This document shows, piece by piece, positions 26,122 to 43,671 of a stretch of DNA of 64,000 nt (position 1 is the stretch's first letter; every line of letters starts with the position of its first letter). This DNA comes from Verrucomicrobiaceae bacterium (GTDB taxonomy: Bacteria > Verrucomicrobiota > Verrucomicrobiia > Verrucomicrobiales > Verrucomicrobiaceae). The notes beneath the pieces are model-generated. The model ran no database searches. It had not been told where the DNA came from and worked only from the letters and a program-made list of their open reading frames with translations. Where the stretch lies: contig JAEUHN010000042.1 of the NCBI GenBank assembly GCA_016795365.1, forward strand, positions 62,001 to 126,000, read 5' to 3'. Position numbers and translations under genes: made by a program.

Positions 26122-26916
26122 ATGCACGAATACCACCGTCTCCTTCGCAAAGTCCTCGAACAGGGCACCTTTCGCCCCGATCGAACAGGCACGGGGTCGT
26201 ATGCTGTTTTTGGTGAGCAGTCGCGTTATGATCTGTCTGTGGGCTTCCCGTTGGTCACCACGAAGAAGTGCCATCTGCGCTCCATCATTGTGGAGCTGCT
26301 GTGGTTCTTGAAGGGCGATACCAACGTTCGTTACCTCCAGGACAACAAGGTCACCATCTGGGACGAATGGGCCGACGAGCAAGGTGATCTCGGTCCTGTT
26401 TATGGAGCGCAATGGCGACGTTGGCGCGGCGCGGATGGCAAGGAGCATGACCAGATCGCGGATGTGATCGAACGCATTAAGACCTCGCCCAGTTCGCGTC
26501 GTCACGTCGTCAATGCCTGGAATGTCGCCCACATCGAAGAGATGGCGCTGCCGCCTTGTCATTGCTTGTTCCAGTTCTTCGTCGCCAATGGCAAGCTCAG
26601 CTGCCAGCTCTACCAGCGCAGTGCCGATCTGTTCCTCGGCGTCCCTTTCAACATCGCCAGCTACGCCTTGCTCACGATGATGATCGCGCAGGTATGCGAT
26701 CTGCAGCCAGGTGATTTCGTCCACACCTTTGGCGACCTTCACCTTTACGCTAACCATCTGGATCAGGCCAAGCTCCAGCTCACTCGCGAGCCTCGGGCCC
26801 TGCCCACCATGCGTATCAATCCCGAGGTCAGGAACATCGACGACTTCAAGTTCGAAGACTTCACCCTCGAAAACTACGATCCGTGGCCGGCAATCAAAGC
26901 ACCGATTGCCGTTTGA
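26122..26916 (+). CDS. thyA: Thymidylate synthase
   Basis: This 264-residue enzyme methylates dUMP to dTMP with methylenetetrahydrofolate, and has the standard ThyA length. The catalytic Cys is in [11 protein letters not shown]. The dUMP-binding [21 protein letters not shown] and the folate-contacting [13 protein letters not shown] are clear. It starts 67 bases after the RNase G gene. No dihydrofolate reductase follows. A 6-bp hairpin (GAGGGC/GCCCTC, 26953-26969) overlaps the converging cytochrome gene's stop. Confidence 0.98.
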
Positions 26917-26967
26917 TACTGCTCTTCAGCAGGCAGGGAGGGCGTCGGATGGGAGGGCGCGAGGCCC

Positions 26968-29247
26968 TCACGGAGCCGGGGTTGAACGCGTGGCCTCGAT
27001 TCGCATGAAACGGCGTGATTGCGAAGGCACACTGGCATTGTCTCGAGCTTTCAGTTCCACGCTGTTGTTCGTGATCACTGTTGTTGCCGACCAGGTTGTT
27101 AGGTCTGAGGAGGACTTGATGGCGAGTGTCATGTCGTTCGGTGGCATGGGGCCTTTCATCGCCCGTAGGGTGAGATAGGGCTGGCCGCTGATGTTCTCGA
27201 TTTGTGACTGCGGCCCGGTGCTGGTGCGGAAGGTGGTGTCGAGCCCGAGGGCGTATTCGATCCAGTCATTGATTCCGTCACCATCGGTGTCGAGCCGCTC
27301 GTTCCCGGAGCCGATCGTGACGGAGATGGTAGCAGGTTTTGAGTCAATGAAACTGCCGGAGTCGCTGGCGATGTAGGTGAAGTAGTCGGGGCCCTGGTAG
27401 CCGGTGTCCGGGAAGTAAGTCGCCACCTTCGCGGCGATCCCCACCGTGCCGTGCATCGGCTGTTGGATCACGCGCAGCTGCGGGTTGGAGCCACTCGCCG
27501 TGAGCGTGATGTTCGTGGGGGTATTCAATGGCACACTCAGCTGGCCGCTCGCCACCGTGGGCCCCACGTGAGTGCTCGGGTCGCTGCTGCTCGGGCCGTT
27601 GTGACAGTAGTAGCAACTCACTTCCATGCCGCGCTTCAGTGTGAGCGTGCCGAACTTCGTGTTCAGGGAGCGGTCCGCCTGAGCCCGCGAAAGCACCGTT
27701 CCCTTGTAGTCGCTCCCATGACACTCCCGGCACTCGTTGATGCCGATCGTGCGCGCGATGTCGGCGTGATCCACCACCCACGTCTGGCTGCCGATCGGAT
27801 GAATCCCATGCGGTCCTCCCACGGAGTTGGATGGCATGGACGCGTGGCAGACGGTGCAGTCCGCGAGCTTGCCTCGATGCCCCTGCTTGTTCCACGAGTA
27901 GAGATTGTCATCACGATGCAGGGACGGAAACTCTGCGTGGGTGGAACCATGGCACGCGCTGCACACCAGGCCGCCATGCCCTTTCGAGAAACGGAACAAC
28001 GACACGCCAGCAGCAGGCGTGTTCGCATTGGTGGCAAAGCGTTGGTTCGCCGGCACTCGAATCGTGCTGCCCGAGGCGAAAACGGACGTGAAGCGAATCT
28101 GACCTTCGTTCGCCAATGCGTCACCCGAGTGACAGGCCTGGCAGTTGGGCTCCATGAGCCAGCCCATGCGCGTCGATGCTCCGACGTCACTCATGTGGCC
28201 ATGACAGCTCTGGCATTGCATCACCAGTGAGCCATCATTCGCGTTCACCGCGCTGCCCATCGCACCCCGCAAACAACGAGTCGTCGAGCCCGGGTGGCAG
28301 AGGTAACAGGAGTTTCGGCTCAGGCTGTCGTTCATGAGCAGGCCATTCGTCGGGTTCACCACGTTCGCGTGTTTCGCATGCATCGACTGGGTTAGTGGTG
28401 GAACGCCTGCCGCCCCGCCCGTGCCGAGCGCCTCGGATGCATGGCATGCAGCGCAGAGGACCTGCTTGTTGGAGTTCACCACGCTATGATACAGGCCTTG
28501 CGATGGGTAACCCATCGACGCCAGCGCCGTCGCGTAGTTTGGGTTCGAGGCATTCTTTTCATCGTGCAGTCGCAGGATGTTCAGGCGGAAGTCACGCTTG
28601 TCGTTCGGGTCATTCACCCATCCAGCCGCAGGCATCGCTGCTGCGCCCGAGCCTGACTTGTGGCATGCTCGACAGTCCATCTCGTCGCTCACCGGCACCA
28701 CAACGTCTGCGCTCGCCAGCACCGTGTTGGTAGCATTTCTCACTGATACCCGCATCAGTGGATACGGATTGCGGCGACCGGCGTCATCCGTCGGGCAGAT
28801 CGGAATCCCCGCCGCCTCGAACCAGTTCATCCCGGCATTCCAAACCATTGTCTGTGGCGTGTTCGACGCGCCCGGCATCGACTTGCCAGCCAGCCCCTGG
28901 TCTATCGTGACCCCGGCGCCATAGAGCACCGCAGCGTAAGTGTAGAAGTTCGTCTTGTTCAGCGAGGTCGTATTGATCGAGCCGTCAGGACTCGCCAGTG
29001 CTTCATAGGTCACCGTGATACCAGCCGTCGTCGGATTGGTGATGAGATGTCCGGCTGCATCCATCACCTGCGCATTGATCGTGTTGAACGGCGGCAGGAT
29101 GGAGAAGACGCTGTAGTCATCGTCCATGCAGTGCATCCCCAGATTGTTCCAGGCAACCACTGTCCATTGACCACTGCCCGCGAAGGATGGGTTGAGGAGT
29201 GAACCCAGGACGAGACTGAGGAGCGCGAGCCAGCGAAAGTGCTTCAT
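26968..29247 (-). CDS. Secreted nine-heme multiheme cytochrome c
   Basis: This 759-residue exported protein starts at the ATG at 29247 (signal peptide MKHFRWLALLSLVLGSLLNP). An N-terminal beta region precedes a heme-rich core with nine CxxCH motifs at about residues 192, 265, 314, 345, 369, 429, 464, 506 and 545 (for example CRACH, CAACH, CYLCH, CQSCH, CQACH, CSACH). The C-terminal third is beta-rich, with a calcium-type repeat (DTDGDGINDWIEYALGLD, about 660) common in verrucomicrobial secreted proteins, and a tail distantly like the nearby InlB-repeat proteins. Many extra His residues could be distal heme ligands. It could carry electrons across the envelope or reduce an external substrate. 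fccB lies 420 bases upstream on the same strand. Confidence 0.9.
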   Translation of the reverse strand: MKHFRWLALLSLVLGSLLNPSFAGSGQWTVVAWNNLGMHCMDDDYSVFSILPPFNTINAQVMDAAGHLITNPTTAGITVTYEALASPDGSINTTSLNKTNFYTYAAVLYGAGVTIDQGLAGKSMPGASNTPQTMVWNAGMNWFEAAGIPICPTDDAGRRNPYPLMRVSVRNATNTVLASADVVVPVSDEMDCRACHKSGSGAAAMPAAGWVNDPNDKRDFRLNILRLHDEKNASNPNYATALASMGYPSQGLYHSVVNSNKQVLCAACHASEALGTGGAAGVPPLTQSMHAKHANVVNPTNGLLMNDSLSRNSCYLCHPGSTTRCLRGAMGSAVNANDGSLVMQCQSCHGHMSDVGASTRMGWLMEPNCQACHSGDALANEGQIRFTSVFASGSTIRVPANQRFATNANTPAAGVSLFRFSKGHGGLVCSACHGSTHAEFPSLHRDDNLYSWNKQGHRGKLADCTVCHASMPSNSVGGPHGIHPIGSQTWVVDHADIARTIGINECRECHGSDYKGTVLSRAQADRSLNTKFGTLTLKRGMEVSCYYCHNGPSSSDPSTHVGPTVASGQLSVPLNTPTNITLTASGSNPQLRVIQQPMHGTVGIAAKVATYFPDTGYQGPDYFTYIASDSGSFIDSKPATISVTIGSGNERLDTDGDGINDWIEYALGLDTTFRTSTGPQSQIENISGQPYLTLRAMKGPMPPNDMTLAIKSSSDLTTWSATTVITNNSVELKARDNASVPSQSRRFMRIEATRSTPAP

Positions 29248-29666
29248 GCTGGAGATTGTCCCACAGTGCCCATTTGTGCCGCACGTGAAGGATTGATAAC
29301 AAAGCCAACCCAGGGCCTTCACTGCGCAAGATAAGATCACCACCGCAATGAGTTGTTTGGTTTGTCCATTTTGTTCTGGGCCGCACTGTTCTCAGCGGAC
29401 AACGGAGAAGGTAATGAATGGAAATGCCAATGCCTCATCGAACAGCAGAACGCAAACAGCGCAACGTCAGCCGTCAAAGGGAGAAGGTGCAGAACTCATC
29501 TTCACGGGGCCAACCCTCCCAAGTCGGATCACCGGAGGATGAATAGTGCCCCTTCTCGCGTTGGCGGCTGCGTTGGCGACGGGTGCGTTGTTGCGGATGC
29601 GCGCGGCGGTCGATTCTGGTGCCGCGACCACGCACATCATCGTGCGTGATCGCGAGCGAGGGGACA
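29248..29666. other. Intergenic region upstream of the nine-heme cytochrome
   Basis: These 419 bases separate fccB from the nine-heme cytochrome gene and probably hold that gene's own promoter. Short open frames exist on both strands, but none has convincing codon use or signal features. No RNA gene or strong hairpin was seen. Confidence 0.4.
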
Positions 29667-30929
29667 CTACACGAAGGAGTCGGCGAAGATATTATTCGCC
29701 CACTGGAACATCTGCTTCATGCCGTCGGAGGTGGGCTTCGCTGCCTCGGCGAACGAGGCGTCCACGCGCTTCATGGTCTTGCTCACGGGATCGTATTGGA
29801 ACGAGGCGGTGAGCCAGGCGGCGGTGGTGGACGTGATCGGGCTGAAGCAGGCAGAACTGGTCACCGGATTCGGATCTGGTTCCTCACCATTGAAGGCGCG
29901 GATGATGGCGTCGGCGCAGACCTTGGCCTGTGAGTTGGCCATGTGGCCGGATTTGGGCTGGCCGGTGGCCTGCGAGTCGCCGAGGATGTGGATGTCGGGA
30001 TGCACGGTGGAGGCGTAGTTCAACGGGTTCACCGTGGACCAGCTTCCAGTAGCATCATTGGCGAGGCCAGCGGCAGTGACGATCCGTCCGGCGCGCTGGT
30101 TCGGGATCACGTTGAGCACGTTGGCGTTGAACGTGCCTGCGGCGGTGATGATCTTCTTGGCGGATGAATCCACTTCGTTCACGGTCGCATTCGGCACGTA
30201 GGTGAGGATGCCTTTGTAGGTCTTGGTGAAGGCGTTGCCGAAGTTGATCGGCTCGGCCTGGATGGAGGCATTCGCATCGAGCACGATGATCTTGCCGTTC
30301 TTCACCTTGCGCTTGAGGTAGTCGGCCACCGAGCATGCACGTTCATACGGCCCTGGCGGGCAGCGATACGGTGCCTTGGGGATGGTCATGACAAAGGTCT
30401 GGCCCTTAGTCATGGAGGCGAGCTGGTTCTTCAGAAGCAAGGTCTGCGGACCGGCCTTCCACGCGTGCGGTGTGAGCTGGTCGTTGTAGTTGCCTGCCGG
30501 ATTGATGAACTCGATGCCCGGTGCGAGCACGAGCTTGTCATACGCATAGGCATAGGTGGTGCCGCCGACATTGACGACGACCTCCTTTGCACTCGGATCA
30601 ACCGAGAGCGCCTCGCCCTGCACGACATTCACGCCGCGCTTAGTTTTGAGGCTGTCGAAACTGAGGTTGATGCGATCCATCGGCAGCGCGCCGGTGACGA
30701 CGAGGTTAGACAAGATGCAGGCGTAGTGGCTGGCGGCGCGGTCGATCAGGGTGACGTCGATATTGCCGCCCCAGAGCTTCAGATACTTGGCGACCGTGGC
30801 TCCGCCGAAACCGCCACCAATGACGACGACGTGAGGCGGTGTGGTGGCGGCGCTGACGGCCTTTGGGAAAGCCCAGCCTGCTGCAGCGAGCGCTGCGAAC
30901 TGAAGGAAGTCTCTGCGATTGGAGTTCAT
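29667..30929 (-). CDS. fccB: Flavoprotein subunit of flavocytochrome c sulfide dehydrogenase
   Basis: This 420-residue Tat-type exported flavoprotein (MNSNRRDFLQFAALAAAGW) matches FccB. The FAD-binding motif is VVVIGGGFGGATVAKYL, and VHPDIHILGDS is the second flavin contact. The C-terminal FCSD flavin-binding domain is present. The two redox-active cysteines have counterparts in YRCPPGPYERAC and SSACFSPI. The enzyme oxidises sulfide and passes electrons to its cytochrome c subunit, encoded 21 bases upstream as a CxxCH protein. Some homologues act on other substrates, so sulfide specificity is inferred. It appears to be the last gene of the b561-InlB-fccA-fccB unit. Confidence 0.88.
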   Translation of the reverse strand: MNSNRRDFLQFAALAAAGWAFPKAVSAATTPPHVVVIGGGFGGATVAKYLKLWGGNIDVTLIDRAASHYACILSNLVVTGALPMDRINLSFDSLKTKRGVNVVQGEALSVDPSAKEVVVNVGGTTYAYAYDKLVLAPGIEFINPAGNYNDQLTPHAWKAGPQTLLLKNQLASMTKGQTFVMTIPKAPYRCPPGPYERACSVADYLKRKVKNGKIIVLDANASIQAEPINFGNAFTKTYKGILTYVPNATVNEVDSSAKKIITAAGTFNANVLNVIPNQRAGRIVTAAGLANDATGSWSTVNPLNYASTVHPDIHILGDSQATGQPKSGHMANSQAKVCADAIIRAFNGEEPDPNPVTSSACFSPITSTTAAWLTASFQYDPVSKTMKRVDASFAEAAKPTSDGMKQMFQWANNIFADSFV

Positions 30930-30950
30930 GAGGTCAATGGACGTGAAGGG

Positions 30951-31277
30951 TTAACCATCGGAGTTCGCCCCCTTGGGCATGGTCGCGAGGTAGTTGGCGA
31001 TTTGTAGGATCTGGCCTGGTGTGAAGGCTCTTGCCTGCAGGTCCATGATGCCTTCTGGCGTCTTGCGTTTGCTCATCTCGAGCAGCTCGTTGTAGATTTC
31101 ACGGGCGCTCTTGCCTGCGATGCTCTCAAAGCCGCCCACGGCCTGTCCGTTGGTGCCGTGGCACTGGAAGCACATGGAGGCGAGGAGTTGACCAGGAGGC
31201 GGTGCCGCCCGGACGGAGGAAACCATGACCGCTGTCACAGCAATCACAGCTGACTGTATGTGTCGTTTGGTTTTCAT
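30951..31277 (-). CDS. fccA: Cytochrome c subunit of flavocytochrome c sulfide dehydrogenase
   Basis: This 108-residue class I cytochrome c starts at the ATG at 31277, giving a signal peptide (MKTKRHIQSAVIAVTAVMVSSVRA). It has one heme motif, CFQCH in LASMCFQCHGTNG. The probable axial Met is in GIMDLQARAF, followed by the typical C-terminal helix GQILQIANYLATMPKG. FccA proteins may be single- or double-heme; this is single-heme. It receives electrons from FccB and passes them to a quinone, cytochrome or oxidase. It begins 49 bases after the InlB-repeat gene. Confidence 0.85.
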   Translation of the reverse strand: MKTKRHIQSAVIAVTAVMVSSVRAAPPPGQLLASMCFQCHGTNGQAVGGFESIAGKSAREIYNELLEMSKRKTPEGIMDLQARAFTPGQILQIANYLATMPKGANSDG

Positions 31278-31326
31278 TTGGCGTTGTTGGGTTGTCTTGG
31301 TTGCGATGTGTGTGGCAAACAGGTCG

Positions 31327-33789
31327 TCAAGGGTGGGTGAGGCGGATGAACCGGCTCCCACTGGGATTGAGTATCGAGACATGCTTTTGGCCACCGCTCG
31401 TCGTGATGGGCAGCGCGGAGGTCGTCCAACCTGTCGGGCTGAGATCAGCGCTCTCCTCCAAGACCCAGCCGATGGCTGATTCCGGCCAGGCAAAACCGAT
31501 GGTGCCCGGTGTGGTGTTTGCGATGCCCACGATGGGAACGAAGTTTGCCACCAGCGCGCGGTTCGTAGCCGCGTTGAAGGAGAAGCTGTTGCTGCTGCTC
31601 ACCACGGTGCCGGCTTCGGTCCAGCCGGTGAATTGATAGCCTGCGGCGGGTGTGGCGAGCAGTGTCACCACGCCGCCGGTGGCGTATCCGCCGCCTCCGC
31701 TGACACTGCCGCCTGGCGCGAAGGATGGCGTCGTCGTGACGGTAAAGCCTGCGGCGAAGGTTGCCTGGAGCGTGCGCTGATTCAGCAGGGTGAACGTGTA
31801 GGCGGACGTGGTGCTGACGGTATTGCCACCTTCCTTCCAGTTGAGGAAGACATAGCCTGGCTTCGCTGTCGCCGTGGCGGTGACGCTACTGCCGATGATG
31901 AAGGTGCCAGCGCCTGCCACGGTGCCCATCGCGGTGGAAGAACTGGTGAGCGTGAGCTGATACGACGGCTGAAAATTTGCGACGAGCGTGCGATTCGCCT
32001 CCGCAGGAAAAGAATAGAGCGCAGACGAACTCACGATGGTGCCACCTTCGGTCCAGTTCACGAATGCGTAGCCATTTTTGGCCGTGGCGGAGAGGTTCAC
32101 CACGGCATCGAGCGCGAAGGTGCCCGCACCGCTGACACTGCCGCCATTCGCTGAGGAAGATGTGGCGGCGATGGCATAGCTAGTGGGCACATCCGCCGAG
32201 AGCGTGAGCGCGAGATCGCCCGTGCCGCTGTAGTAGCTGTTCCCGAGTCGGCGATAGTGCGCGTTGTTGCCACCCGCGCCGGTGGCGTGGCCCCAGGTGA
32301 GTGGATAGCCGTATTGTGAGGCTTCGATCTGAATCCAATAACCAACGCCTGCTGTGGCGACGAACGATGTCGGCAGCGTGACTGAGTAATCATACATCTG
32401 CACTCCGCCGACCAGTTCCGCAGCGGTTTGATTCGCGTTGCCGGTGACGGTGTATTTCTTGAGATGCGGGTTCACCAGGTCGGGGTAGAAGCCGTTGGCC
32501 GTGGAGCCGTAGATTTTGATGTTGAACTCCACCACTGGATTGGCCGCCGAGTTGTTGCCGATGTAGCCCCCGCGCCAGCGCAGATGCGAGATGCCCGTGG
32601 TGGTGGCCAGTGTGAACTTCTCAAAGCGATACTCCATGCCGTCCACGTTCCCATCCGGCGCGAGATACGAGGAGAGCAGCAGCGTGCCGGAAGTCGTCGT
32701 CGGCTGGGAAAAAACGATGCCGAGATTGCTGGCGGATGAAGTGAAGTTCGCGACGAGATCGCGGTCTCCCGTGGCGGTGAAGGTGTAGCTCGCGCTCGCA
32801 CTCACCGGCACGCCATTTTCGGTCCAGTTGACGAAATTGTAGTTCGCGGAAGGCGTCGCCTGCACGGTGACGCTGCTGCCATTCACAAAACTGCCGCCGC
32901 CATCCGTATTGCCACCTGTGAGCGGCGAGGAGGAGGTCGTGATGAGCGACCCAGTGGCGAAATTGGCCACCAACGTGCGGTTTCCCGTCACGGTGAAGGT
33001 GTAGTTCGGATTCGTGCTGACCACGATGCCGTTCTCCGTCCAGTTCACGAAGGCAAAGCCAGCGTTCGGCGTGGCGATGAGCGGTGCAGCGGCGTTTTGC
33101 GGATAGAGGCCCGCATTCGTGACCGTGCCGCTGCCGATGGGTGATTCAGTCGCCGCGATGCTGAAAGTCGGCCCATCAATGGTGACGATGCTGAACGCCG
33201 CGTCACCCGGCGCATACTGGAAATAGAAATCCGCCTGCCCGGCGATGCGCCGGAAGTGCGAGCCATTGCCTGTGCCCGCCGCGAATCCCCAATACGGCAG
33301 CCCGTTGGCAAACTCGGCCTCGATCTGCACCCAGTAGAGCTTTCCTGCCTGCGCCTGAAACACCGTTGGTAGCGTGAAGTGATAATCAAACATCTCCACG
33401 CCGCCAAACAGCCCCGCGCTCGTCTCCCCCGCTTTGTTTCCCGTGTCGTAGGCGATCAGCGTCGCAGGCGTGCCCGGGTAGCCCGGCCCCAGATGCGGCT
33501 GCGACAAGCCCGGCGTGGATTCATAGATCGACACGCGGAAGTTCACGATGTCTCCGCCCCAGTAAGCCATCTGCGGATCATAGCCGCCTCGCCAGCGAAT
33601 CTCCGTCACCGCCTGCGCCGTAGGCACGCTGAATGAGTCCCACACGAACTGATCGTTGTCCGTCCCATTCGGCTGATAGCGCGACGATGCCCGCAGCACT
33701 CCGCTGCCATCATGCGGCTGTTCAAAGACGACGCCCGCCTGTGCGACGAGCGAAGTCAGGAGCAGTAAGAATATGAGGAAGCGTTTCAT
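31327..33789 (-). CDS. Large secreted InlB-repeat protein, redox-operon member
   Basis: This 820-residue protein starts at the ATG at 33789, with a signal peptide (MKRFLIFLLLLTSLVAQA), just four bases after the b561 stop. It contains two copies of a roughly 190-residue beta domain, the first starting GVVFEQPHDGSG and the second GIVFSQPTTTSG, each with an RWRGGY motif. Five divergent InlB B-type repeats are placed two after the first copy and three after the second, each ending in a variant of NRTLVANF. The last 60 residues form the shared C-terminal module ending FIRLTHP. Such repeats are common in secreted adhesins. Its role in the redox operon is unknown; the gene spacing indicates co-expression. 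Confidence 0.82.
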   Translation of the reverse strand: MKRFLIFLLLLTSLVAQAGVVFEQPHDGSGVLRASSRYQPNGTDNDQFVWDSFSVPTAQAVTEIRWRGGYDPQMAYWGGDIVNFRVSIYESTPGLSQPHLGPGYPGTPATLIAYDTGNKAGETSAGLFGGVEMFDYHFTLPTVFQAQAGKLYWVQIEAEFANGLPYWGFAAGTGNGSHFRRIAGQADFYFQYAPGDAAFSIVTIDGPTFSIAATESPIGSGTVTNAGLYPQNAAAPLIATPNAGFAFVNWTENGIVVSTNPNYTFTVTGNRTLVANFATGSLITTSSSPLTGGNTDGGGSFVNGSSVTVQATPSANYNFVNWTENGVPVSASASYTFTATGDRDLVANFTSSASNLGIVFSQPTTTSGTLLLSSYLAPDGNVDGMEYRFEKFTLATTTGISHLRWRGGYIGNNSAANPVVEFNIKIYGSTANGFYPDLVNPHLKKYTVTGNANQTAAELVGGVQMYDYSVTLPTSFVATAGVGYWIQIEASQYGYPLTWGHATGAGGNNAHYRRLGNSYYSGTGDLALTLSADVPTSYAIAATSSSANGGSVSGAGTFALDAVVNLSATAKNGYAFVNWTEGGTIVSSSALYSFPAEANRTLVANFQPSYQLTLTSSSTAMGTVAGAGTFIIGSSVTATATAKPGYVFLNWKEGGNTVSTTSAYTFTLLNQRTLQATFAAGFTVTTTPSFAPGGSVSGGGGYATGGVVTLLATPAAGYQFTGWTEAGTVVSSSNSFSFNAATNRALVANFVPIVGIANTTPGTIGFAWPESAIGWVLEESADLSPTGWTTSALPITTSGGQKHVSILNPSGSRFIRLTHP

Positions 33790-33793
33790 GATC

Positions 33794-34510
33794 TCAGTCG
33801 TCATCGTGCTTGCGACCCTGCTTGCCTTTGTCGCCCTCGTTTTCGCCAAGCTGCAAAGTCACTCCGATGCCCGGCAGTATGACTGTGGCCGTGCTGGCGT
33901 TGTGTGCGGCAAACAGCGCCGCGATCCACACACCGGCCACGATGGCGATCACCACGCCCCAGACCGCGTGACTGGATGAGATGGCATCCTCCGCCTTGCC
34001 CGACTTTTTCCCCGTGACCATGGCGAGCGAGATATTCTCCCGATGCCGAATCGTGTGCCAAGCCAGCCCGGCCAGATGCATAACGATGACCATCAGCAAG
34101 CCCCAGGCAAAAACTTCATGCAATTCTTCGAGCGCTTCACCACCGGTGCCGATGCCCGAGATGAACAAGGCGGGCACCAGCAGAAACATCAGCACTGCCG
34201 CCACCGCCGAGCCAGGATTGTTCCCCGCATACAGCTTCGTCTTCGATACCAACGCGCTGATCAGGTAGCCGATGACTTCACGCGGATGCACCGGAAAGCT
34301 GGCGAACCGCGAGTAGCGCGAGCCCACGATTCCCATCACCACGCGCATGCCCAGCAAGAACAACGCGACGATGCCAAACAGCATGTGCAGCTGAAACAAC
34401 GGCGCATGATCATCGACCAGGAAGCCGATGGCGATGGCCGCACTGAGCGAGCCGGCAAAGGCCCAGTGAAAGAGGCGGGCAGGGATGTCCCAGACGAGAA
34501 TTCGATTCAT
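33794..34510 (-). CDS. Cytochrome b561-type membrane protein
   Basis: This 238-residue protein starts at the ATG at 34510 (MNRILVWDIPARLFHWAFAG), which matches the conserved N-terminal V-W-D-x2-R-x2-H-W signature of the bacterial b561/Ni-Fe-hydrogenase b subunit family. Four to five membrane helices carry candidate heme His ligands in RLFHWAF, FQLHMLFG, LEELHEVFAW and VIVMHLAGLAWH. The C-terminus has an extra helix and a charged tail (NEGDKGKQGRKHDDD). The family transfers electrons between quinones and periplasmic partners. It is the first gene of the likely b561-InlB-fccA-fccB operon, so it may exchange electrons with FccA/FccB; the direction is unknown. Confidence 0.85.
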   Translation of the reverse strand: MNRILVWDIPARLFHWAFAGSLSAAIAIGFLVDDHAPLFQLHMLFGIVALFLLGMRVVMGIVGSRYSRFASFPVHPREVIGYLISALVSKTKLYAGNNPGSAVAAVLMFLLVPALFISGIGTGGEALEELHEVFAWGLLMVIVMHLAGLAWHTIRHRENISLAMVTGKKSGKAEDAISSSHAVWGVVIAIVAGVWIAALFAAHNASTATVILPGIGVTLQLGENEGDKGKQGRKHDDD

Positions 34511-34776
34511 GATGTGTGGGTGCTGGCGGTTTTCACCACTGCCTTGCTGTCGCGAGCTGGTGGCATCATGGATACGTGTATCCTCCCACCCATGCGTGAT
34601 GTAGCACATGATGGTTTGGCCATGCAGCCAATCTGCGCGTAGCCGAGCGCAAGATTGAGCCGCCGCCGATGAGTCCCTCTACACAACATCGGCAGCGGAG
34701 TCAGGCCGCTGATGGCCGGTATGTTATCTCGATCCATATCGCGAAGCGCCAAGGCATGAGCAGAAGTGACGAGGCA
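34511..34776. other. Promoter region of the redox operon
   Basis: These 266 bases separate the RND pump gene from the b561 gene. GGATAC-GT-GTATCC at 34570-34583 has perfect 6-base half-sites and lies about 60 bases upstream of b561, a possible operator. No coding region is credible. Confidence 0.35.
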
Positions 34777-37700
34777 TTACATTAATGGGACGGCCGCATC
34801 AGGAATGGCTTCTGGGTCAGTTCTTGGTGCTACAGCGGAGATTCTGCCCTCACTACTCAGAGCCTGCCAGCTCATTACCCAGCGATAAAGAACGGGCAAC
34901 AGCACGAGCGTGAGGAAGGTGCTGCTGAGGATGCCGCCAATGACGACCGTTGCCAGCGGGCGCTGCACTTCGGCACCGGGACCCGTGGCGATGGCCATGG
35001 GGATGAAGCCGAGCGCAGCGACCATAGCGGTCATCAAGACGGGACGGAGACGCGTGATGGAGCCTTCGATCACGGCATCGCGTAGCGAGCGGCCTTCTTC
35101 GAGCAGCTCGTTGAAGTAGGTGACCATCACCAGGCCGTTGAGCACGGCCACACCACTGAGCGCGATGAAGCCGACGGCGGCGGTGATGGAGAACGGCATG
35201 CCACGCAGCCACAGCGCGACCACACCACCGGTGAGTGCCAAGGGAATGCCCGTGGCGATGACGAAGGTCTGCTTGAGGCTGCCGAACGACATGAAGATCA
35301 GCAACAAGATCAACACCAGCGAGGCGGGCACCACGATGGCGAGACGCTGCCGCGCTTCGTTGAGGTTCTTGAACGAGCCGCCGAACTCGAAGGTGTAGCC
35401 CTCGGGCAGCTTGAGTTCCTTTTGTAGCCGCGCCGTGGCTTCGTTCACGAAGCCCTCCATGTCACGATCCTTCACGCTGACCATGAGGCCCACCTTCCGC
35501 TGTGTCAGCTCATGCGCGATGGGTTCCACCACTTGTTCGCGCTTGAAATCAACGACCGTGCCGAGCGGCAGCAGGCCGTTCTCGCCGACACGAATCGGCA
35601 GTGCGGCGATCAGCTTCTCATCGGCGCGTTGTTCATCAGGAAGACGCACCACGATGTCGTAGCGACGATTGCCATCCATCATCGTGCCCACGGTTTCACC
35701 GCCGAGTGCGACGCTGACAGCTCGGTTCACTTCGGCAGCGGAGAGGTTGCGCTTCAGCATCTCGCGACGCTTCACATTGATCACGAAGTTGGTGGTGCGA
35801 CCATCGACTTCCAGTTCAGCATCGCCACCGGGCACGCTGGAGACGATCTGCTTCGCCTGACGCGCGACCTTCTCCAACTGATCGAAGTCGGAGCCAAAGA
35901 TCTTCAGCGACAACTCGGCCTTGGAGCCTTCCAGCATCTCGTTAAAACGCATCTCGATGGGCTGCGCGAACTCAAAGTTATGTCCAGGCACTTCCTTGTT
36001 AATCGCGGCTTCGATCTGCTCGCAGAGTTCCTTCTTGTTCTGCGGACGGCCTGCGGTGCGCGGCCATTCCTTGAGCGGCTTGTAGAAGATGTAGAAGTCG
36101 TTCTCGTTCGGCCCCATCGGGTCGGTGGCCACCTCGCTGGTGCCCACGCGATCAAAGACATAAGTCACTTCCGGGAAGTTCTTCAGCACGATCTTCTCAG
36201 CCTGCAACTGCATGGCCAGTGACTTGTCGAGGCTCATGCCCACCTCCTTGTAAACCATGGTGGTGATCGCGCCTTCATCCAGCTTCGGCACGAACTCCGC
36301 GCCCAGCGTGCCATACAGTGCCACGGCTCCGGCGAAGAGTGCGATGCCGCCCGCGACGGTGAGCCAGCGCAGCTTCAGCGCGATGCCGAGCGAGGGACGA
36401 TAGATCGCCTTCGCCGCGCGGATCATCCAGTTGTCCTCTTCGGAAATTGATCCGCCGAGGAAGAACGAGCACAGCACTGGCATGAGCGTCAGCGACAAGA
36501 TCAAGGCACCAACCAGCGCGAGGATGACGGTCATCGCCATCGGATGGAACATCTTCCCTTCCACACCACTGAGGCTGAGGATCGGCAGATACACGATGGT
36601 GATGATGAGCACGCCGAAGAACATCGGCTGGCCCACTTGCTTCGCCGCACGCAGCACCACTTTGCTGCGTTCTTCCGCATTCAGGACACGGCCCAGATGA
36701 TGCTGCTTCTCGCCGAGCTGACGCACGATGTTTTCCACCATCACGACCGCGCCATCAATGATCAGACCGAAGTCCACCGCGCCGAGCGACATGAGATTGC
36801 CCGAGATGCCGTAGTAGTTCATGCCGGTGATTGCGAAGAGGAACGACAGCGGAATCGCGAGCGCCACGATGATCGCCGCACGCCAGTTCCCGAGCAGAAG
36901 CAGGAGCACCACGATCACGAGCGCGGCTCCTTCAAAGAGATTGTGCTTCACGGTGCCGATGGTGCGATCCACCAGCTCGGAGCGTTGATACACACTGGTG
37001 AGCTTCATGCCTGCGGGCAGTTTCATGCGCACTTCCTCAAGACGCGGTGCCACACGCTGGCACACCACGCGTGCGTTCTCGCCCGAGAGCATCATCACGG
37101 TGCCCAGCACGCATTCCTCACCGTTGTAGGTCGCGGCTCCGGTGCGGTAGCGTTCACCAAGTTCCACCTTCGCGAGGTCCTTCACACGAATGGGCTCCAC
37201 TGCCGCGCCATACTTCACGGGCAGATCAGCAATCTCATCTGGCGACTGCACACGGCTCACGGCGCGGATGGTCAATTGCTTGCCGTCCTTCGAGATGATG
37301 CCGCCGCCCGCGTTCTCTGCGTTGGCACGAATCACGTCGGCAAGTTCAGCGAGCGTCAACGATGCAGCGCTGAGCTTGGCAAGATCAGGCTCCACCACGA
37401 CCTGGCGTTGATAGCCGCCGCTGCTGTTGATCTCGGCTACGCCAGGCACGGTGCGCAGCATCGGCTTCACGATGTATTCCTGCGCTTCACGCAGTTGCAT
37501 CAGCGCCTGCGCCTGATCAGCGGGTCGCTCTTTCGCATCCGGTGCCCAGCTCACGGTGTAGTAGAAGATCTCGCCGAGGCCGGTGCTGATTGGCGCGAGC
37601 TTCGGTGAGACACCGGCAGGCAATTGATCGAGCACACCTTGCAGACGTTCGGCCACGAGCTGGCGCGAGCGATAGATGTCGGTGCCATCCTCGAAGTTCA

Positions 37701-37983
37701 TCGTCACCTGCGAGAGGCCGAACTTGGTGATGGACCGCATCTCCGACACACCGGGCAGTCCTTGCATCTCCATCTCGATGGGGCGCGTGACCGCCTTCTC
37801 CGATTCCTCCGGCGCCAGCGCAGGAACCTCGGTATTGATCTGCACCTGCACGCCGGTGAGGTCTGGCACGGCATCAATCGGCAGCTTGATCACGGAATAG
37901 ATGCCCGCACCGAGCAAGGCGGCGGCAAGCATGAGCACGAAGGCTCGCTGACGGAGTGAGAACTCCAGAATCTTGTCAATCAT
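34777..37983 (-). CDS. cusA: CusA/CzcA-type heavy-metal RND efflux pump
   Basis: This 1068-residue inner-membrane RND transporter fits heavy-metal efflux pumps (CusA, CzcA) in length and start (MIDKILEFSLRQRAFVLMLA). Key segments are AVPDLTGVQVQINTEVP, LMSLGAVDFGLIIDGAVVMVEN with the proton-relay-type Asp of helix 4, GAEFVPKLDEGAI and, in the second half, LIFMSFGSLKQTFVI. A Met-poor pore region argues that Co/Zn/Cd-type substrates are also possible, so CusA is used loosely. A Shine-Dalgarno-like GGAGG precedes the ATG. Its TolC partner is 15 bases upstream, but the usual periplasmic adaptor (CusB/CzcB) is missing here. Confidence 0.92.
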   Translation of the reverse strand: MIDKILEFSLRQRAFVLMLAAALLGAGIYSVIKLPIDAVPDLTGVQVQINTEVPALAPEESEKAVTRPIEMEMQGLPGVSEMRSITKFGLSQVTMNFEDGTDIYRSRQLVAERLQGVLDQLPAGVSPKLAPISTGLGEIFYYTVSWAPDAKERPADQAQALMQLREAQEYIVKPMLRTVPGVAEINSSGGYQRQVVVEPDLAKLSAASLTLAELADVIRANAENAGGGIISKDGKQLTIRAVSRVQSPDEIADLPVKYGAAVEPIRVKDLAKVELGERYRTGAATYNGEECVLGTVMMLSGENARVVCQRVAPRLEEVRMKLPAGMKLTSVYQRSELVDRTIGTVKHNLFEGAALVIVVLLLLLGNWRAAIIVALAIPLSFLFAITGMNYYGISGNLMSLGAVDFGLIIDGAVVMVENIVRQLGEKQHHLGRVLNAEERSKVVLRAAKQVGQPMFFGVLIITIVYLPILSLSGVEGKMFHPMAMTVILALVGALILSLTLMPVLCSFFLGGSISEEDNWMIRAAKAIYRPSLGIALKLRWLTVAGGIALFAGAVALYGTLGAEFVPKLDEGAITTMVYKEVGMSLDKSLAMQLQAEKIVLKNFPEVTYVFDRVGTSEVATDPMGPNENDFYIFYKPLKEWPRTAGRPQNKKELCEQIEAAINKEVPGHNFEFAQPIEMRFNEMLEGSKAELSLKIFGSDFDQLEKVARQAKQIVSSVPGGDAELEVDGRTTNFVINVKRREMLKRNLSAAEVNRAVSVALGGETVGTMMDGNRRYDIVVRLPDEQRADEKLIAALPIRVGENGLLPLGTVVDFKREQVVEPIAHELTQRKVGLMVSVKDRDMEGFVNEATARLQKELKLPEGYTFEFGGSFKNLNEARQRLAIVVPASLVLILLLIFMSFGSLKQTFVIATGIPLALTGGVVALWLRGMPFSITAAVGFIALSGVAVLNGLVMVTYFNELLEEGRSLRDAVIEGSITRLRPVLMTAMVAALGFIPMAIATGPGAEVQRPLATVVIGGILSSTFLTLVLLPVLYRWVMSWQALSSEGRISAVAPRTDPEAIPDAAVPLM

Positions 37984-37998
37984 GGTGATGCCTCCGGT

Positions 37999-39273
37999 TT
38001 AGTTCTTAGCGACAGGAGCGGTGCTGCTGAGAAACTTCAGCCCGGTGAGCAGTTCGAGGTCCTGCAGGTTGGCGATGGCTTCACTGCGCGTGGAGAGCAG
38101 CGCATCGAGTGCGTCGAGATAGCTCTTCTGCAGCTCGATGTAAGTCGTCACCGGAATCGCGCCGAGCTTGTAGTGCTGGTTGCCGAGTTGTGCGGCTTCG
38201 CTGAACCGTTGCAGCGAATCGCTGCGCCATTGCGACATCTCTTCGAGCTGTGTGGCATACGTCGAAGCCTTCGCGACGACTTGCTTCTCCACCTCGCGTG
38301 TGGCCACGGCAAACGAAGCTTGTGCCTGCTGCTGGCGTGCTTCGGCAGCGGCGACGTTGCCTTTGTTGCGATTCCACAGCGGCAGCGGAATGCTCACCGA
38401 GATGCCCGCAGTGGTTTCTTTGTCGCTGCCCGCGCGTTGCGAGCTGACGAAGGGTTGCACGGTGATCGCTGGCTTGCCTTCGTTGTAGGCAAGGCTCACA
38501 GCGAAGCCCTGCTGGCGCAGTTCCGCCTCACGTGTGCGCAGATCGAAGTTGTTCTTCATCGCGGCTTTCAGCAAGGCCGTGAGGTCTGGTGCCTCCGGCA
38601 ACGTGAGGTCCGTCTTCGCAATGGTTAGCGCGGTCTCTGGACGGACTCCACGCAGCAGGTTCAGCTCGAGACGCGTGTTGTTCAGTTCCTGCTTCATCAG
38701 GCTCGTCTGTCGCGTGAGTGAAAGCACCGTGGCTTCCAGAATGCGAGTCTCCACCAAGGGCGCAGGTCCCGAAGGATCGCGCTGCACCAGCACGGCCAGC
38801 ACATCCTGAATACGCGTGGAGGCTTCATCGCTCGCAGCGACTTTCTCCTGCGTGATGAGTGCCTTCACAGCGAGCGCACGCACTTTGGTCGCGAGCGAGT
38901 TCTTGAACGATGCGAGGCCAAGCTCAGCGATCTCGATCTGACGATCCGCGATGGCCTTGCGAAGACCGAGGCGACCCGCCCATTCGAAGGTTTGCGAGAT
39001 GGCCGCCTGCCACGCCGGACCATCGCCGGTGTCTTTCACCGACCAGCGCGACAGCTCCGTGGTGAGTGTTGGATTGCTCTGCTTGCCAGCGTCGATGCGC
39101 TGACCTTTGGCGATGGCGAGCTGCGCTTCATAGAAGGCAATCTCGGGATTGTGAGCCACCGCGCTCGCTACAATCGTGGCGATGGATTGTGGTGTGGTGG
39201 CAGTGGTTTCGTTGGCGAACGACAGATGGGAAACGAGGCAAAGAGAAAGGATGAAAAGGGGGCGTGAAAACAT
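37999..39273 (-). CDS. TolC-family outer-membrane efflux protein (CusC/CzcC type)
   Basis: This 424-residue protein starts at the ATG at 39273, with a signal peptide (MFSRPLFILSLCLVSHLSFA). Long amphipathic helices with TolC-type repeats (IAFYEAQLAIAKGQRIDAG, FDLRTREAELRQQGFAVSLA, AEARQQQAQASFAVATREVE) build the periplasmic tunnel. It pairs with the RND pump 15 bases downstream. The substrate is probably metal, from the pump type. A short exported protein is encoded 143 bases upstream. Confidence 0.9.
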   Translation of the reverse strand: MFSRPLFILSLCLVSHLSFANETTATTPQSIATIVASAVAHNPEIAFYEAQLAIAKGQRIDAGKQSNPTLTTELSRWSVKDTGDGPAWQAAISQTFEWAGRLGLRKAIADRQIEIAELGLASFKNSLATKVRALAVKALITQEKVAASDEASTRIQDVLAVLVQRDPSGPAPLVETRILEATVLSLTRQTSLMKQELNNTRLELNLLRGVRPETALTIAKTDLTLPEAPDLTALLKAAMKNNFDLRTREAELRQQGFAVSLAYNEGKPAITVQPFVSSQRAGSDKETTAGISVSIPLPLWNRNKGNVAAAEARQQQAQASFAVATREVEKQVVAKASTYATQLEEMSQWRSDSLQRFSEAAQLGNQHYKLGAIPVTTYIELQKSYLDALDALLSTRSEAIANLQDLELLTGLKFLSSTAPVAKN

Positions 39274-39416
39274 GGGTGTAGAAGTGAGAGTTGAGTTTGA
39301 GAAGGCGGGCGCAGATGTGCGGTCCCGGTCAGCGCGCGATGGCGCGGGTGCGTGTGCCTTGATGGCTGTTCGCATCCGTGGCGGATGCGGCGAACTCGCA
39401 AGGCGCTAGGCCTTCT

Positions 39417-39911
39417 TCAAATCAACATCTGCACGGTGCATAGGCCGATAAGGCCTGGCGATGCGATCACTTCGTCCCGCGATGAGGCGTGGACGAGCGT
39501 GGTGTGGGTGCGAGCAAGATCAAGCCTTGTATCCACCCATGTAAAGGGCAGCGGCTGCGGTGCATGTTTGCTTCCGGCAGATTCGATCACGCTGCTGCGC
39601 TCGTAGCGATCTGTGGCGTTCTTGAACGAAAGCTTGTGATCAGGGTGCGTGCCGCCTTGCGATTGCGCGAAGGTCAACACCGCGCGTGTCAGCAGACCGT
39701 GCTGATGACCTTGGGGTAACGCGGTGTCGTTCTGCCCGAGCTTGCGCTGATGACGCAGCATCAGCGTGAGCCCGTCCGAGCCAGCGGTGAACTCCACCTT
39801 GTGCGAGCCATCAATCCACACTGCCAGCGCAGCCGCCGCAGGAAGGACCGGCGTTTGCGACACCACGAACAGCATCAGCACAATCACGCGCAGGGCGAGA
39901 TGACGGAGCAT
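39417..39911 (-). CDS. Small exported protein, paralogue of the 49271-49765 protein
   Basis: This 164-residue protein starts at the ATG at 39911. The signal peptide (MLRHLALRVIVLMLFVVSQT) is followed by a short beta segment (HKVEFTAGSDGLTLMLRHQ) and a His/Gln-rich stretch (ALPQGHQHGLL). It has the same length as the protein at 49271-49765. Both share the H-x-V-x(4-6)-G-x-L-x2-x-L-x-H pattern, an inner DH motif and a hydrophobic C-terminus. It precedes the TolC-CusA genes, so metal sensing or binding in the periplasm is possible but unproven. No named family was recognised. Confidence 0.7.
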   Translation of the reverse strand: MLRHLALRVIVLMLFVVSQTPVLPAAAALAVWIDGSHKVEFTAGSDGLTLMLRHQRKLGQNDTALPQGHQHGLLTRAVLTFAQSQGGTHPDHKLSFKNATDRYERSSVIESAGSKHAPQPLPFTWVDTRLDLARTHTTLVHASSRDEVIASPGLIGLCTVQMLI

Positions 39912-40306
39912 GGTGAACGATGTGCAGCAAAGCATGGTGAGAGAAAGACAATACGCGCATACTTCTTTCGCGCGCATGATGTTGAGATTGCTAGCAAGCC
40001 AGTCGAAGCCCGCAACTACCGGGCTTGTAGCGTGGATTATCGTTTCGTAATCATCGACACAACGTGTTATGGAACCGGTATGAGTGGTGTCGCATGTGTG
40101 TGCACGAGGCACATGGCCACTGCTCTCGCGTGCAGGTTTGTGAGGTTCCTTCAGTTCCAACCGTGTTATCCGCAATTAAAGAGGATGCCGGTTTGTTTGA
40201 CAAAAACGCAATGATTTGATCGTCAACGTCATATCATGCAAATGCATCTGGCGCTCGACGGAAGTGGGTGTGAACTCAGATATGGCGATGCTTCAGTTTG
40301 GATGCC
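39912..40306. other. Intergenic region with strong inverted repeat before the efflux genes
   Basis: These 395 bases hold no credible gene. A 7-bp perfect stem with 7-nt loop (AAGCCCG/CGGGCTT, 40006-40026) lies about 95 bases upstream of the small exported protein gene. A second short dyad, GATTA/TAATC, lies downstream. They may be operators or leader structure for the efflux cluster. Confidence 0.45.
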
Positions 40307-41293
40307 TCACGGCTTCACCAGACGGAAGAATTTGCCGCCCGTCGGATTCGCGATCACGGCACTACTTTGTGCTCCGGCTGTGGTGATGGGTAGGCTTGAA
40401 TTGACCCAACTGCCGGGACTCAAATCTGCGCTCTCCTGCAAGATCCAGCCTGCAAGCGATGAGGGCCAGTTCAGGACGAGGCTACCGTCCGATGCTGGAG
40501 GCGTGAATGCCATCACGGGTAGCTCAGCAAAGTTCGCAACGAGTGTGCGAGCGCTGCCGACAGTGAAGGTGTAGTTGGCTAGCGCACTGGCTGCGACAGT
40601 CGCCTCGGTCCAGTTCACGAAGTAGTAACCGGGACTCGCGGTGGCGATGAGCGTGGCGTTGCTGCCCGATGGATAGGAGCCTCCGCCGGTGACGGTCCCG
40701 CCGATGGGCGATGATGGGGTCGCAGTGACATTGAACGTCAGAGGAGGCGTGGGTTCCAATGAGACATTGTCATAGTGGACCAGCGCCTGATCGTTCTGCT
40801 GGGAGGCACCGATGGTGCCCAAGTAGATCACATGCACTCCGGGAGTGAGCGTCAGCGTCACTGTCTGATTGAGGTGCCACGCGCTCGGTGAACTTTCGCT
40901 CATGTAGGTTTTTGAGAAGAGAGCCTGTGATGCCGTGACATACCAGTTGTCGATGGCGATCTTGGCTCCGTTGATCAGCGTTCCCGCATTGGCGTTTTCG
41001 AGGTAGTAGTCGAAGGTCAGCGTGAAGGTGCCTCCGCTGCCCGCATCGAAGCTTTGGAAGACGTAGTATTTGTGCGTGTTGGCATTGTGAAGCCCCGCTG
41101 TGCTGAACCTCAAGTCACCGTTAAAAACGCCCGCGTTTTCCGTGCTGCCGTTCATTCCTGACCAGTTCGTCGGCAGGCTGATCGCAGGTCCCACGGGATC
41201 GTAGGTCTGGGAAAAGTCTCCGTTTGTCAGGAGATTGGCGTGGGCGTGAATTGCCCCCCAAGTCAGGAGGAGAAGTGCGAGTCGGGTTTTCAT
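40307..41293 (-). CDS. Secreted protein with one InlB repeat and the shared C-terminal module
   Basis: This 328-residue protein starts at the ATG at 41293 (signal peptide MKTRLALLLLTWGAIHAHA). Residues 20-190 look like a carbohydrate-binding jelly-roll (NLLTNGDFSQTYDPVGPAIS, a common CBM-like opening in PVC proteins). A single InlB B-type repeat follows (NWTEATVAASALANYTF, RTLVANF). The last 60 residues are the shared module ending FFRLVKP. It begins 17 bases after the upstream InlB-repeat gene, so both are probably co-transcribed. It may bind surfaces or glycans. Confidence 0.8.
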   Translation of the reverse strand: MKTRLALLLLTWGAIHAHANLLTNGDFSQTYDPVGPAISLPTNWSGMNGSTENAGVFNGDLRFSTAGLHNANTHKYYVFQSFDAGSGGTFTLTFDYYLENANAGTLINGAKIAIDNWYVTASQALFSKTYMSESSPSAWHLNQTVTLTLTPGVHVIYLGTIGASQQNDQALVHYDNVSLEPTPPLTFNVTATPSSPIGGTVTGGGSYPSGSNATLIATASPGYYFVNWTEATVAASALANYTFTVGSARTLVANFAELPVMAFTPPASDGSLVLNWPSSLAGWILQESADLSPGSWVNSSLPITTAGAQSSAVIANPTGGKFFRLVKP

Positions 41294-41310
41294 GTGCTGA
41301 CAATGAAAAT

Positions 41311-43251
41311 TCATGGCCGTGCGAGACGGAAGAACAGGCTGCCTGTGGGGTTCGGGATGGAGATTTGGTTTTGCCCGCCGCTGGTGGTCACTGGCAGTGC
41401 CGAGTTCACCCAGCTCGCGGGGCTCAGATCAGGGCTCTCCTGCAAGACCCAGCCCGTCGCGCTTTCTGGCCACGAGAACCCCAAACCTCCTCCTGCCGGC
41501 GCTGAAATGCTGACGACTGGCAGCGCGATGAAGTTCGCCACGAAAGTGTAGTCGGCGCTGGCGGTGAAGGTGATGGGATTAGTGCTGCCTGCGGGAGCGC
41601 CACTGAGGGTCCAGTTGCTGAAGATATAGCCTGAAGATGGAGTCGCGGTGAGCGTGACGGTGGCTCCATTGCCAACGACGCCTGAGCCGCTGACGCTGCC
41701 GCCTGCGAGGGGAGCAGCGCTGGCGGTGATGGTGCGATTGGTGGCGATGTAGGCGGCCGTGAGCGTGGTGTGATTCGTGATCGTGAAGGAGTAACTAGGG
41801 CTGGTGCTCTTGATGGTGCTGCCTTCCTTCCAGTTCGCAAAGGCATAGCCGACCGCAGGCGTGGCATTGACGGTGACATTGGAACTGTGCGCAAAGGTTC
41901 CCGCTCCGGTATTGGTGCCTCCTGCCACGGGAGATGAGGCGAGGGTGAGCACGGGATTGTTCGGCTCGAAGTAGGCGGTGATCGTGGTGCCGTAGCAGAC
42001 CATGTGCTTGAGCGTGGGATTGGTGCCCACAACATGCGGTGCGCCGCTGATGTCGCCGAGACCCGCGCCCTGCTTCCAATACGCGAAGTGATAGCCGGGA
42101 TAAGGTGTGGCATTGATGGTGAGCAGCGTGCCGCCATAGTAGCTGCCGCCGGAGAGTCCCGCCGTGCCTGCGATGACCATCGTGCCGGATGAGACCGGTG
42201 AAACGACGCCGTTGATGAAGCTCGTGTAAGCCGGATAGGCGAAGTTGGCCACGAGCGTGCGGTCTGCCGTCGCGGTGACTTCAAACACCTGCGTGGCAGC
42301 GTTGAAGGGGAGGTTCACGATCTCGCCATTCTCCGTCCAGCCGACGAACGACAGGCCGTCCGCCGGCGTGACATCAAGTTCGCGGATCTCGCCCGCGTTG
42401 ACCATGCCTGCACCACCAACGGTCCCGTTCACTGAGGGATTCGCGATGGCGTTGATCATGTAGGGGCCGGTGTTGGGGCCTGAGAAGTTGGCGGTCAGCG
42501 TCTTGTTTCCATCGGCGGCAAAGGAGAAACTGGCGCTCGTGCTGACAATGACTCCAGCTTCGGTCCAGTTCAGGAAGGTGCGTCCGCTGGCGGCGGTGGC
42601 GGTCGCCGTGACATTCGCTCCCCCTGAATAGGTGCCGCCACCCGTGACTGTGCCGCCCGCCGCTGGAGCTTTCGCAAGAGTGATCGTCACGGGCACGGTG
42701 GCCTGATTGAGCAGCGTGAACGCGACATCGCCGCCCGCGCCGACGTAGCGGTAGTCGCCCGTCACGGCAGGCACTTGTGCGAGGTGTGAGCCATTGCCGC
42801 CCGTGCCCGCGCTCCATTGCCAGTAAGGATAGTAGTTGTCCACCAAGCCAATGACCTGGAGCCAGTAGCCCTGTCCTCCCGTGAGCACGAAGCCCGCTGG
42901 CAGCGTGAACTTGTAGTCATACACGCCTGGCGTTGCGGTCGGTGTCTCGCTCGCCACGCCATTTGTATGCCACACGGTGCCGCCAGGAATGGCAATGGTG
43001 TTGATGCTGATCTGAAAATCCAGCGGCGCAGGACCTGAACGCGGGCCACGCCACTGAATCTCCCGCAGCGTCTGCGTTGTTGGCGTGCCAAAAGAGTCCC
43101 ACACGAACTCCTCCAGATTGCTGCCGCCATTGCTGTAGGTGGAGGAAAGGTAGCCCATCGATCCCGCATTGGGCGACTGCTGGTAGATGACTCCTGCCAG
43201 GGTGAAGCCGGACAGGGCAAATACCGTCAAGGTGAGAGCGACGATCTTCAT
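41311..43251 (-). CDS. Secreted protein with five InlB repeats
   Basis: This 646-residue protein has a signal peptide (MKIVALTLTVFALSGFTLA). An N-terminal domain of about 170 residues (GVIYQQSPNAGSMGYLSS, EFVWDSFGTPTTQTLREIQW) is homologous to the domain doubled in the 31327-33789 protein. Five divergent InlB B-type repeats follow, each centred on a (F/Y)-x-x-W-(T/K)-(E/Q) core and ending in ANF-like strands. The C-terminal module ends FFRLARP. It lies 30 bases after a small exported protein gene and 17 before the next InlB-repeat gene. A cell-surface or adhesive role is inferred. Confidence 0.82.
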   Translation of the reverse strand: MKIVALTLTVFALSGFTLAGVIYQQSPNAGSMGYLSSTYSNGGSNLEEFVWDSFGTPTTQTLREIQWRGPRSGPAPLDFQISINTIAIPGGTVWHTNGVASETPTATPGVYDYKFTLPAGFVLTGGQGYWLQVIGLVDNYYPYWQWSAGTGGNGSHLAQVPAVTGDYRYVGAGGDVAFTLLNQATVPVTITLAKAPAAGGTVTGGGTYSGGANVTATATAASGRTFLNWTEAGVIVSTSASFSFAADGNKTLTANFSGPNTGPYMINAIANPSVNGTVGGAGMVNAGEIRELDVTPADGLSFVGWTENGEIVNLPFNAATQVFEVTATADRTLVANFAYPAYTSFINGVVSPVSSGTMVIAGTAGLSGGSYYGGTLLTINATPYPGYHFAYWKQGAGLGDISGAPHVVGTNPTLKHMVCYGTTITAYFEPNNPVLTLASSPVAGGTNTGAGTFAHSSNVTVNATPAVGYAFANWKEGSTIKSTSPSYSFTITNHTTLTAAYIATNRTITASAAPLAGGSVSGSGVVGNGATVTLTATPSSGYIFSNWTLSGAPAGSTNPITFTASADYTFVANFIALPVVSISAPAGGGLGFSWPESATGWVLQESPDLSPASWVNSALPVTTSGGQNQISIPNPTGSLFFRLARP

Positions 43252-43281
43252 AGGGACTTGGGCTTTGCGCGAGGATGCGAT

Positions 43282-43671
43282 CTACTTGATCACGGCTTTC
43301 GCTGTGCCCTGATCGATGATCGCGCCCAGCTTGCTGTAGAAGGTGATCGGGCCAGCGTAACTGCCGTCAGTTTGCAGCGCGAGGCGAGCATCACCATTGG
43401 TCTCGTAGTTGGGCGTGTAGAACCAGGTGAGGCTGGTGCCATACAGTGTGCCGGGATAACGCTTGCCACTGATATTGACATTGCCCTGATAGGCCACACC
43501 CCAGCTGCCCACGCGCACTGCTTTGACGGCAGTGAACTTCATGGTGCCAGACTTCTTCGGTGTGACGAAGGTCCCAGTGACGGAGGGAGCAGCTGCAAAT
43601 ACGGTGCCGATACTGAGTGCAAGGATCGCGATGACAGAGGCGAGGATGGTGCGGCGATGGTTCGTTCTCAT
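43282..43671 (-). CDS. Small secreted protein of unknown function
   Basis: This 129-residue protein starts at the ATG at 43671. It has a signal peptide (about 1-27, RRTILASVIAILALSIGTVF) and a beta-rich body (TGTFVTPKKSGTMKFTAVKA, WGVAYQGNVNISGKRYPGTL, SYAGPITFYSKLGAI). I recognise no family. It is the first of a three-gene run with two InlB-repeat genes, 173 bases after the giant gene. Confidence 0.75.
   Translation of the reverse strand: MRTNHRRTILASVIAILALSIGTVFAAAPSVTGTFVTPKKSGTMKFTAVKAVRVGSWGVAYQGNVNISGKRYPGTLYGTSLTWFYTPNYETNGDARLALQTDGSYAGPITFYSKLGAIIDQGTAKAVIK

Follow-up and report, generated by a model that had tools for sequence, protein, structure and literature searches.

In the window, the whole 64,000-nucleotide stretch of a Verrucomicrobiaceae contig that was analysed, four adjacent minus-strand genes encode a cytochrome b561-type membrane protein, an 820-aa exported repeat protein, a monohaem cytochrome c (cytc) and an FCSD flavoprotein (fccB). 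Our preferred reading, to which we give about half of our confidence, is that they may form the downstream end of an island of same-strand genes whose products would act in the cell envelope against divalent-metal and sulfide stress, and in which the redox modules are exchangeable. It draws on czcA, on metal-type two-component genes, on the adjacency of b561 and ZntA-type ATPase genes and on a parallel in A. vinosum. A conserved unit made up of the four genes alone was rejected, as their order recurs nowhere among the genomes searched.

Four minus-strand genes lie within a longer same-strand run

The four genes were found at 29667-34510 as the original prediction had placed them, with the same gaps of 4, 49 and 21 bases between the window ORFs for b561, the repeat protein, cytc and fccB. 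The same-strand run extends past both 34510 and 29667, the island reaching from about 49.1 to 27.0 kb (Table 1). Upstream of b561 are czcA, tolC, two more repeat-protein genes, genes for small exported proteins and the gene for a repeat protein termed big, and downstream of fccB, after 419 bases, is the gene for a nine-haem cytochrome. The repeat protein encoded next to cytc, described earlier as giant, is only 820 aa long; the 1757-aa repeat protein stands upstream. Judged from their spacing, the four genes are likely co-transcribed. Promoter and terminator scans of 26800-43300 gave no excess over shuffled sequence (1 versus 4.3 and 10 versus 12.3) and therefore argue neither for nor against a break among the four genes. 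One terminator-like match, at 33752-33732 just inside the 820-aa repeat-protein gene, is at chance level.

Table 1. Features of the island and their positions in the window
Feature	Position	Strand	Details
Nine-CxxCH cytochrome	26968-29247	-	MtrC/MtrF II/IV-like domains, Big_9 domain
FCSD flavoprotein (FccB)	29667-30929	-	420 aa; twin-arginine-like N-terminus
Monohaem cytochrome c, FccA position	30951-31277	-	108 aa, one CxxCH; Cytochrom_C 25.7 bits
49-base gap	31278-31326	-	homologous to the 49-base leader between big and cytc in G156
820-aa exported repeat protein ('InlB' of the original prediction)	31327-33789	-	2 DUF7901 + 5 Flg_new_2
Cytochrome b561-type membrane protein	33794-34510	-	238 aa; Ni_hydr_CYTB PF01292, 80 bits
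CzcA/CusA-family RND exporter	34777-37983	-	1068 aa; TIGR00914; motif DFG-x3-DGA-x4-EN
TolC/CzcC-like outer-membrane efflux protein	37999-39273	-	PF02321, 100.8 bits
Small His-rich exported protein, no family	39417-39914	-	165 aa
335-aa repeat protein	40307-41314	-	335 aa
646-aa repeat protein	41311-43251	-	N-domain like DUF7901
129-aa exported protein	43282-43671	-	45% identity to a 135-aa protein encoded ahead of big in G025
big, exported repeat protein	43845-49118	-	1757 aa; 8 Flg_new_2, He_PIG, unnamed N-domain starting ASIAYGSINNFD

With Listeria internalin B, the 820-aa protein shares only the name of a repeat domain (PF18998, Flg_new_2, 'divergent InlB B-repeats'), and Pfam gave no match to a leucine-rich repeat or a Listeria-type anchor in this protein. 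Structure prediction for the N-domain of big (four sequences, mean pLDDT 47) and for DUF7901 (three paralogues from the window, pLDDT 62) was not good enough for use. A TNF-like jelly-roll fold for DUF7901 was set aside, the PDB fold search having returned weak matches only (best E 3e-3, TM about 0.3). On plasmids, the N-domain of big had only partial Ig-domain matches (five records, none covering 80%), while plasmid relatives of FccB and b561 were all below 60% identity.

Metal-export genes and a candidate role in metal and sulfide stress

The czcA product scored 1214.6 bits against TIGR00914 (cut-off 701), and its DFG-x3-DGA-x4-EN motif is one that we take to be typical of divalent-metal exporters. 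As in CzcCBA systems, a tolC/czcC-like gene directly precedes czcA in the window. CzcCBA has a periplasmic adaptor, whereas the tolC-czcA loci here are without an adaptor gene in all seven genomes searched: no CzcB match (HlyD_D23, PF16576) was found on the window's contig, the 14 matches in this genome lying elsewhere, and none was found within about 15 kb of tolC-czcA in six relatives (genomes and fetched loci carry G and L numbers below). The adaptor slot is filled by a repeat-protein gene with near-overlapping ends in two genomes, by big in G131 and by the orthologue of the 820-aa protein in G096. Adaptor-less tolC-czcA pairs are present in the window, at L133:6967-16589 and at L078:1-4229. 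By eye, similar small His-rich exported proteins, none with a family match above its cut-off, are encoded repeatedly ahead of tolC or big (in the window, the 165-aa protein of Table 1 and 49271-49816; L133:6344-6838; L135:14578-15069; L160:9855-10349; L140:7634-8176).

The N-domain of big is present in 26 of 189 genomes of the order. Together with G190 and G194, which were found via the nine-haem search, these make up the 28 genomes and 29 loci of our survey of big loci. The loci contain a metal-type (RR82 kind) response regulator in 17 genomes, the nine-haem cytochrome in 11, tolC-czcA in seven, cytc-fccB in five and a DUF7901 orthologue in four, with cytc-fccB and the nine-haem gene occurring together only in the window's genome. 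The kinase and regulator of the big locus, tested for G025 and G096, scored best against TIGR01386 and TIGR01387, which are models of the heavy-metal CzcS/CopS and CzcR/CopR proteins, and scored below the curated cut-offs. Beside fccB in G156 stand another regulator and kinase, for which neither model was the best match.

Across the class, b561 was found in 14 of 286 genomes, and 10 of the 13 others were fetched as loci. It adjoins a gene for a ZntA-type P1B-ATPase in five of the 10 (L187, L189, L190, L194 and L195), a two-component pair in five and one or both in seven. Several of the five loci with the ATPase gene also have the two-component pair.

A parallel comes from A. vinosum, in which growth on pyrite strongly induces FccAB together with the locus Alvin_0013-0025; the part of the report available to us lists for this locus an outer-membrane efflux protein, an RND adaptor (MFP), CzcA, FieF, dihaem cytochromes, b561 and a two-component regulator (PMC11267869). 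Common to that system, including FccAB (Alvin_1092-1093), and the island are a CzcA-type RND exporter, b561, c-type cytochromes and, at big loci of relatives, a two-component regulator. In contrast to the window, the A. vinosum locus has the MFP adaptor, dihaem cytochromes, DUF1924 and FieF, that part of the report lists no repeat proteins, and fccAB is located elsewhere in the genome (PMC11267869). The A. vinosum case is thus an analogy, not whole-locus homology. In the same excerpt, A. vinosum fccAB mutants oxidise sulfide at about wild-type rates (PMC11267869). The role of FccAB in vivo is unsettled, and the island gives a testable alternative, FccAB within a metal-sulfide stress response.

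In such a response, CzcA and TolC would export divalent metal, and FccAB in the periplasm would oxidise sulfide or some similar sulfur compound, passing electrons to c-type cytochromes. The b561 protein could connect these cytochromes to the quinone pool, the nine-haem cytochrome may take or deliver electrons farther out, and the repeat proteins would be exported scaffolds or metal/mineral-binding surface proteins. Several observations count against the stress-island reading. For 13 of the 28 genomes with big, the fetched stretch contains no redox module of either kind (cytc-fccB or the nine-haem gene), in several of them because contigs end. The two-component scores are below cut-off, as given above, and no two-component pair was seen in the window's own island. 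In G142, G113 and G087, b561 is flanked by ORFs that by eye look like lysS and a nucleoside transporter gene, among genes without a metal or fcc link. In G113, moreover, fccB is without big in the fetched stretch, and G051 has big on one contig and fccB on another.

cytc-fccB is a constant pair with big as its neighbour in relatives

The product of fccB matched FCSD_central (PF21706) with 119.7 bits, over the cut-off, and FCSD-flav_bind with 24.6 bits, just under the cut-off of 26, and aligned with 1fcd_A at E 1e-72. Counted on the 1fcd alignment, C71, C190 and C361 of FccB align with C42, C161 and C337, which we take to be the FAD-linking and redox-active disulfide cysteines. The window pair thus shares with the known FCSD (FccAB; 1fcd, 3vrd, 5n1t) the FCSD_central domain, the aligned cysteines and a cytochrome c gene directly before the flavoprotein gene. 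Its cytochrome subunit has one haem, like 5n1t_B, whereas the A. vinosum FccAB cytochrome has two, and unlike the known FCSD it sits in a repeat-protein and metal-export island. Because the FCSD cysteines align and the surroundings point to metal stress, the predicted sulfur or metal redox is possible.

An fccB of this kind was found in seven of the 189 genomes of the order, the window's own included, and cytc is directly before it in all seven. In four of these seven genomes big abuts cytc-fccB: it is directly upstream of cytc in G156, G025 and G087, at 49, 29 and 67 bases from the likely start, and on the other side, next to fccB, in G096. The rng, thyA and PBP genes flanking the window island had no match in the loci of 20 relatives, so what is shared is linkage of the island genes, not general synteny. 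Thus cytc-fccB is the constant pair, and big is its constant neighbour in relatives. The supposed link between a surface protein and FccAB holds to the extent that an exported InlB-repeat protein is conserved beside FccAB (4/7), with the correction that this protein is big and not the 820-aa one. In this lineage, FccAB comes with metal-export genes, a regulator of the metal type and repeat proteins that are exported.

Plain periplasmic sulfide oxidation or detoxification, in which cytc-fccB would act alone as a flavocytochrome c and the surrounding genes would be unrelated cargo, is a serious contender that we nevertheless consider improbable. It is in keeping with the alignment of the FCSD cysteines to 1fcd and with the 18 of 67 further fccB loci that were inspected, none of them from the seven order genomes: fccB there follows a cytochrome c gene with one or two CxxCH, and searches of its surroundings for b561, the nine-haem gene and the repeat proteins gave no match. 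It does not explain the abutment of big and cytc-fccB across several genera, which would be rare by chance in genomes of ~6 Mb. Among these further loci, L017, L018, L022, L024 and L030 have, by eye, cytc-fccB near a gene for a ~280-aa protein starting like MDAPSRLSLVASPALLRAVQRLLRPLARLL, and most of them also have a GIGGTG-rich protein nearby.

The nine-haem cytochrome recurs in the big locus

Of 68 family genomes, 10 have the nine-haem gene. Nine of these could be tested, and in each the gene belongs to the big locus; in G170, where it is on 5.0- and 6.8-kb contigs, it could not be placed. Some relatives carry it near big instead of FccAB. Its product has nine CxxCH motifs and a match to PF22113. 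The recurrence in the big locus and the MtrC/MtrF II/IV-like match would fit an extracellular electron transfer island, with the nine-haem cytochrome as the key component, FccAB as an alternative feeder and the repeat proteins as an outer-surface scaffold, and porin-multihaem clusters, which likewise place a multihaem cytochrome in an envelope cluster, are reported in other Verrucomicrobia (PMC5615132). For those clusters, the part of that report available to us describes eight-haem periplasmic cytochromes and a porin for which 20 or more transmembrane segments are predicted (PMC5615132), whereas by eye we recognised neither a beta-barrel porin nor a periplasmic multihaem partner in the loci here, and the search for a PDB sequence relative of the nine-haem protein found none. 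We regard this explanation as quite unlikely.

Among the genomes searched, the order of b561, the 820-aa protein gene, cytc and fccB is confined to the window's

The original prediction had proposed a conserved b561-InlB-fccA-fccB unit, and staked it on the gene order being kept in relatives. Among the seven fccB genomes, b561 or the 820-aa DUF7901 repeat protein is beside cytc-fccB only in the window's genome, and the order is absent in the six others, the very outcome that the prediction had named as refuting it. In the family, b561 is present in five of 68 genomes, in one as a fragment with a stop. Two of these, G113 and G087, also have fccB, in each case on a contig other than that of b561. 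The 820-aa protein is represented by orthologues in three of 68 family genomes, namely the window's genome, G096, where it is encoded between tolC and czcA, and G108, where it is encoded between the nine-haem gene and big; outside the family, the G032 orthologue adjoins big. Also outside the family, b561 is followed by an orthologue of the 820-aa gene with a 4-base overlap in G149, for which no fccB match is listed, so this pair recurs once, without fccAB. The G149 orthologue (L188:1-414) has a stop after about 90 codons.

These positions in relatives, the stop in the G149 copy and the expected periplasmic location of FccAB make it very improbable that b561, the 820-aa protein and FccAB form a redox chain at the surface that depends on contact, despite the tight gene spacing in the window and the overlap in G149. 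Contact dependence of the redox reaction, like the predicted physical tie to the surface protein, is speculation.

The 49-base gap as a rearrangement junction

Window positions 43849-49296 (big) align with G156 7168-1729, and 29671-31345 (leader, cytc and fccB) with G156 8828-7154. In G156, which is of the same genus, big runs directly into cytc-fccB, with the same 49-base leader between them. In the window the two parts lie about 12.4-12.5 kb apart, with a 12.5-kb block that contains the tolC-czcA exporter genes, b561, the 820-aa repeat-protein gene and others between them, so the 49-base gap marks a rearrangement junction. With this block in between, the 820-aa protein occupies the place that big has in relatives, and the predicted 'InlB-fccA' link is where the end of the block meets cytc-fccB. 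The breakpoint lies within the final codons of the repeat-protein genes, and big, the two smaller repeat proteins and the 820-aa protein resemble one another at their C-termini. As big-cytc-fccB is contiguous also in G025 and G087, from two other genera, the window arrangement is probably derived; deletion of the 12.5-kb block in the relatives is a conceivable alternative.

Going further, we tentatively suggest, as an idea that we think unlikely, a modular surface defence of Verrucomicrobiaceae against metal and sulfide, in which big would be fixed, a repeat protein would replace the RND adaptor and the redox module (FccAB or the nine-haem cytochrome) would be exchanged through recombination at the 3´ ends that the repeat-protein genes share. 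A literature search at title and abstract level found no published description of this repeat-protein, cytochrome and metal-export island, through which repeat proteins of unknown function gain a recurring genomic context. Finally, the big gene of G156 (L077:1943-7172) is split over two overlapping frames (1145 and 697 aa), apparently through a frameshift or an error of assembly.
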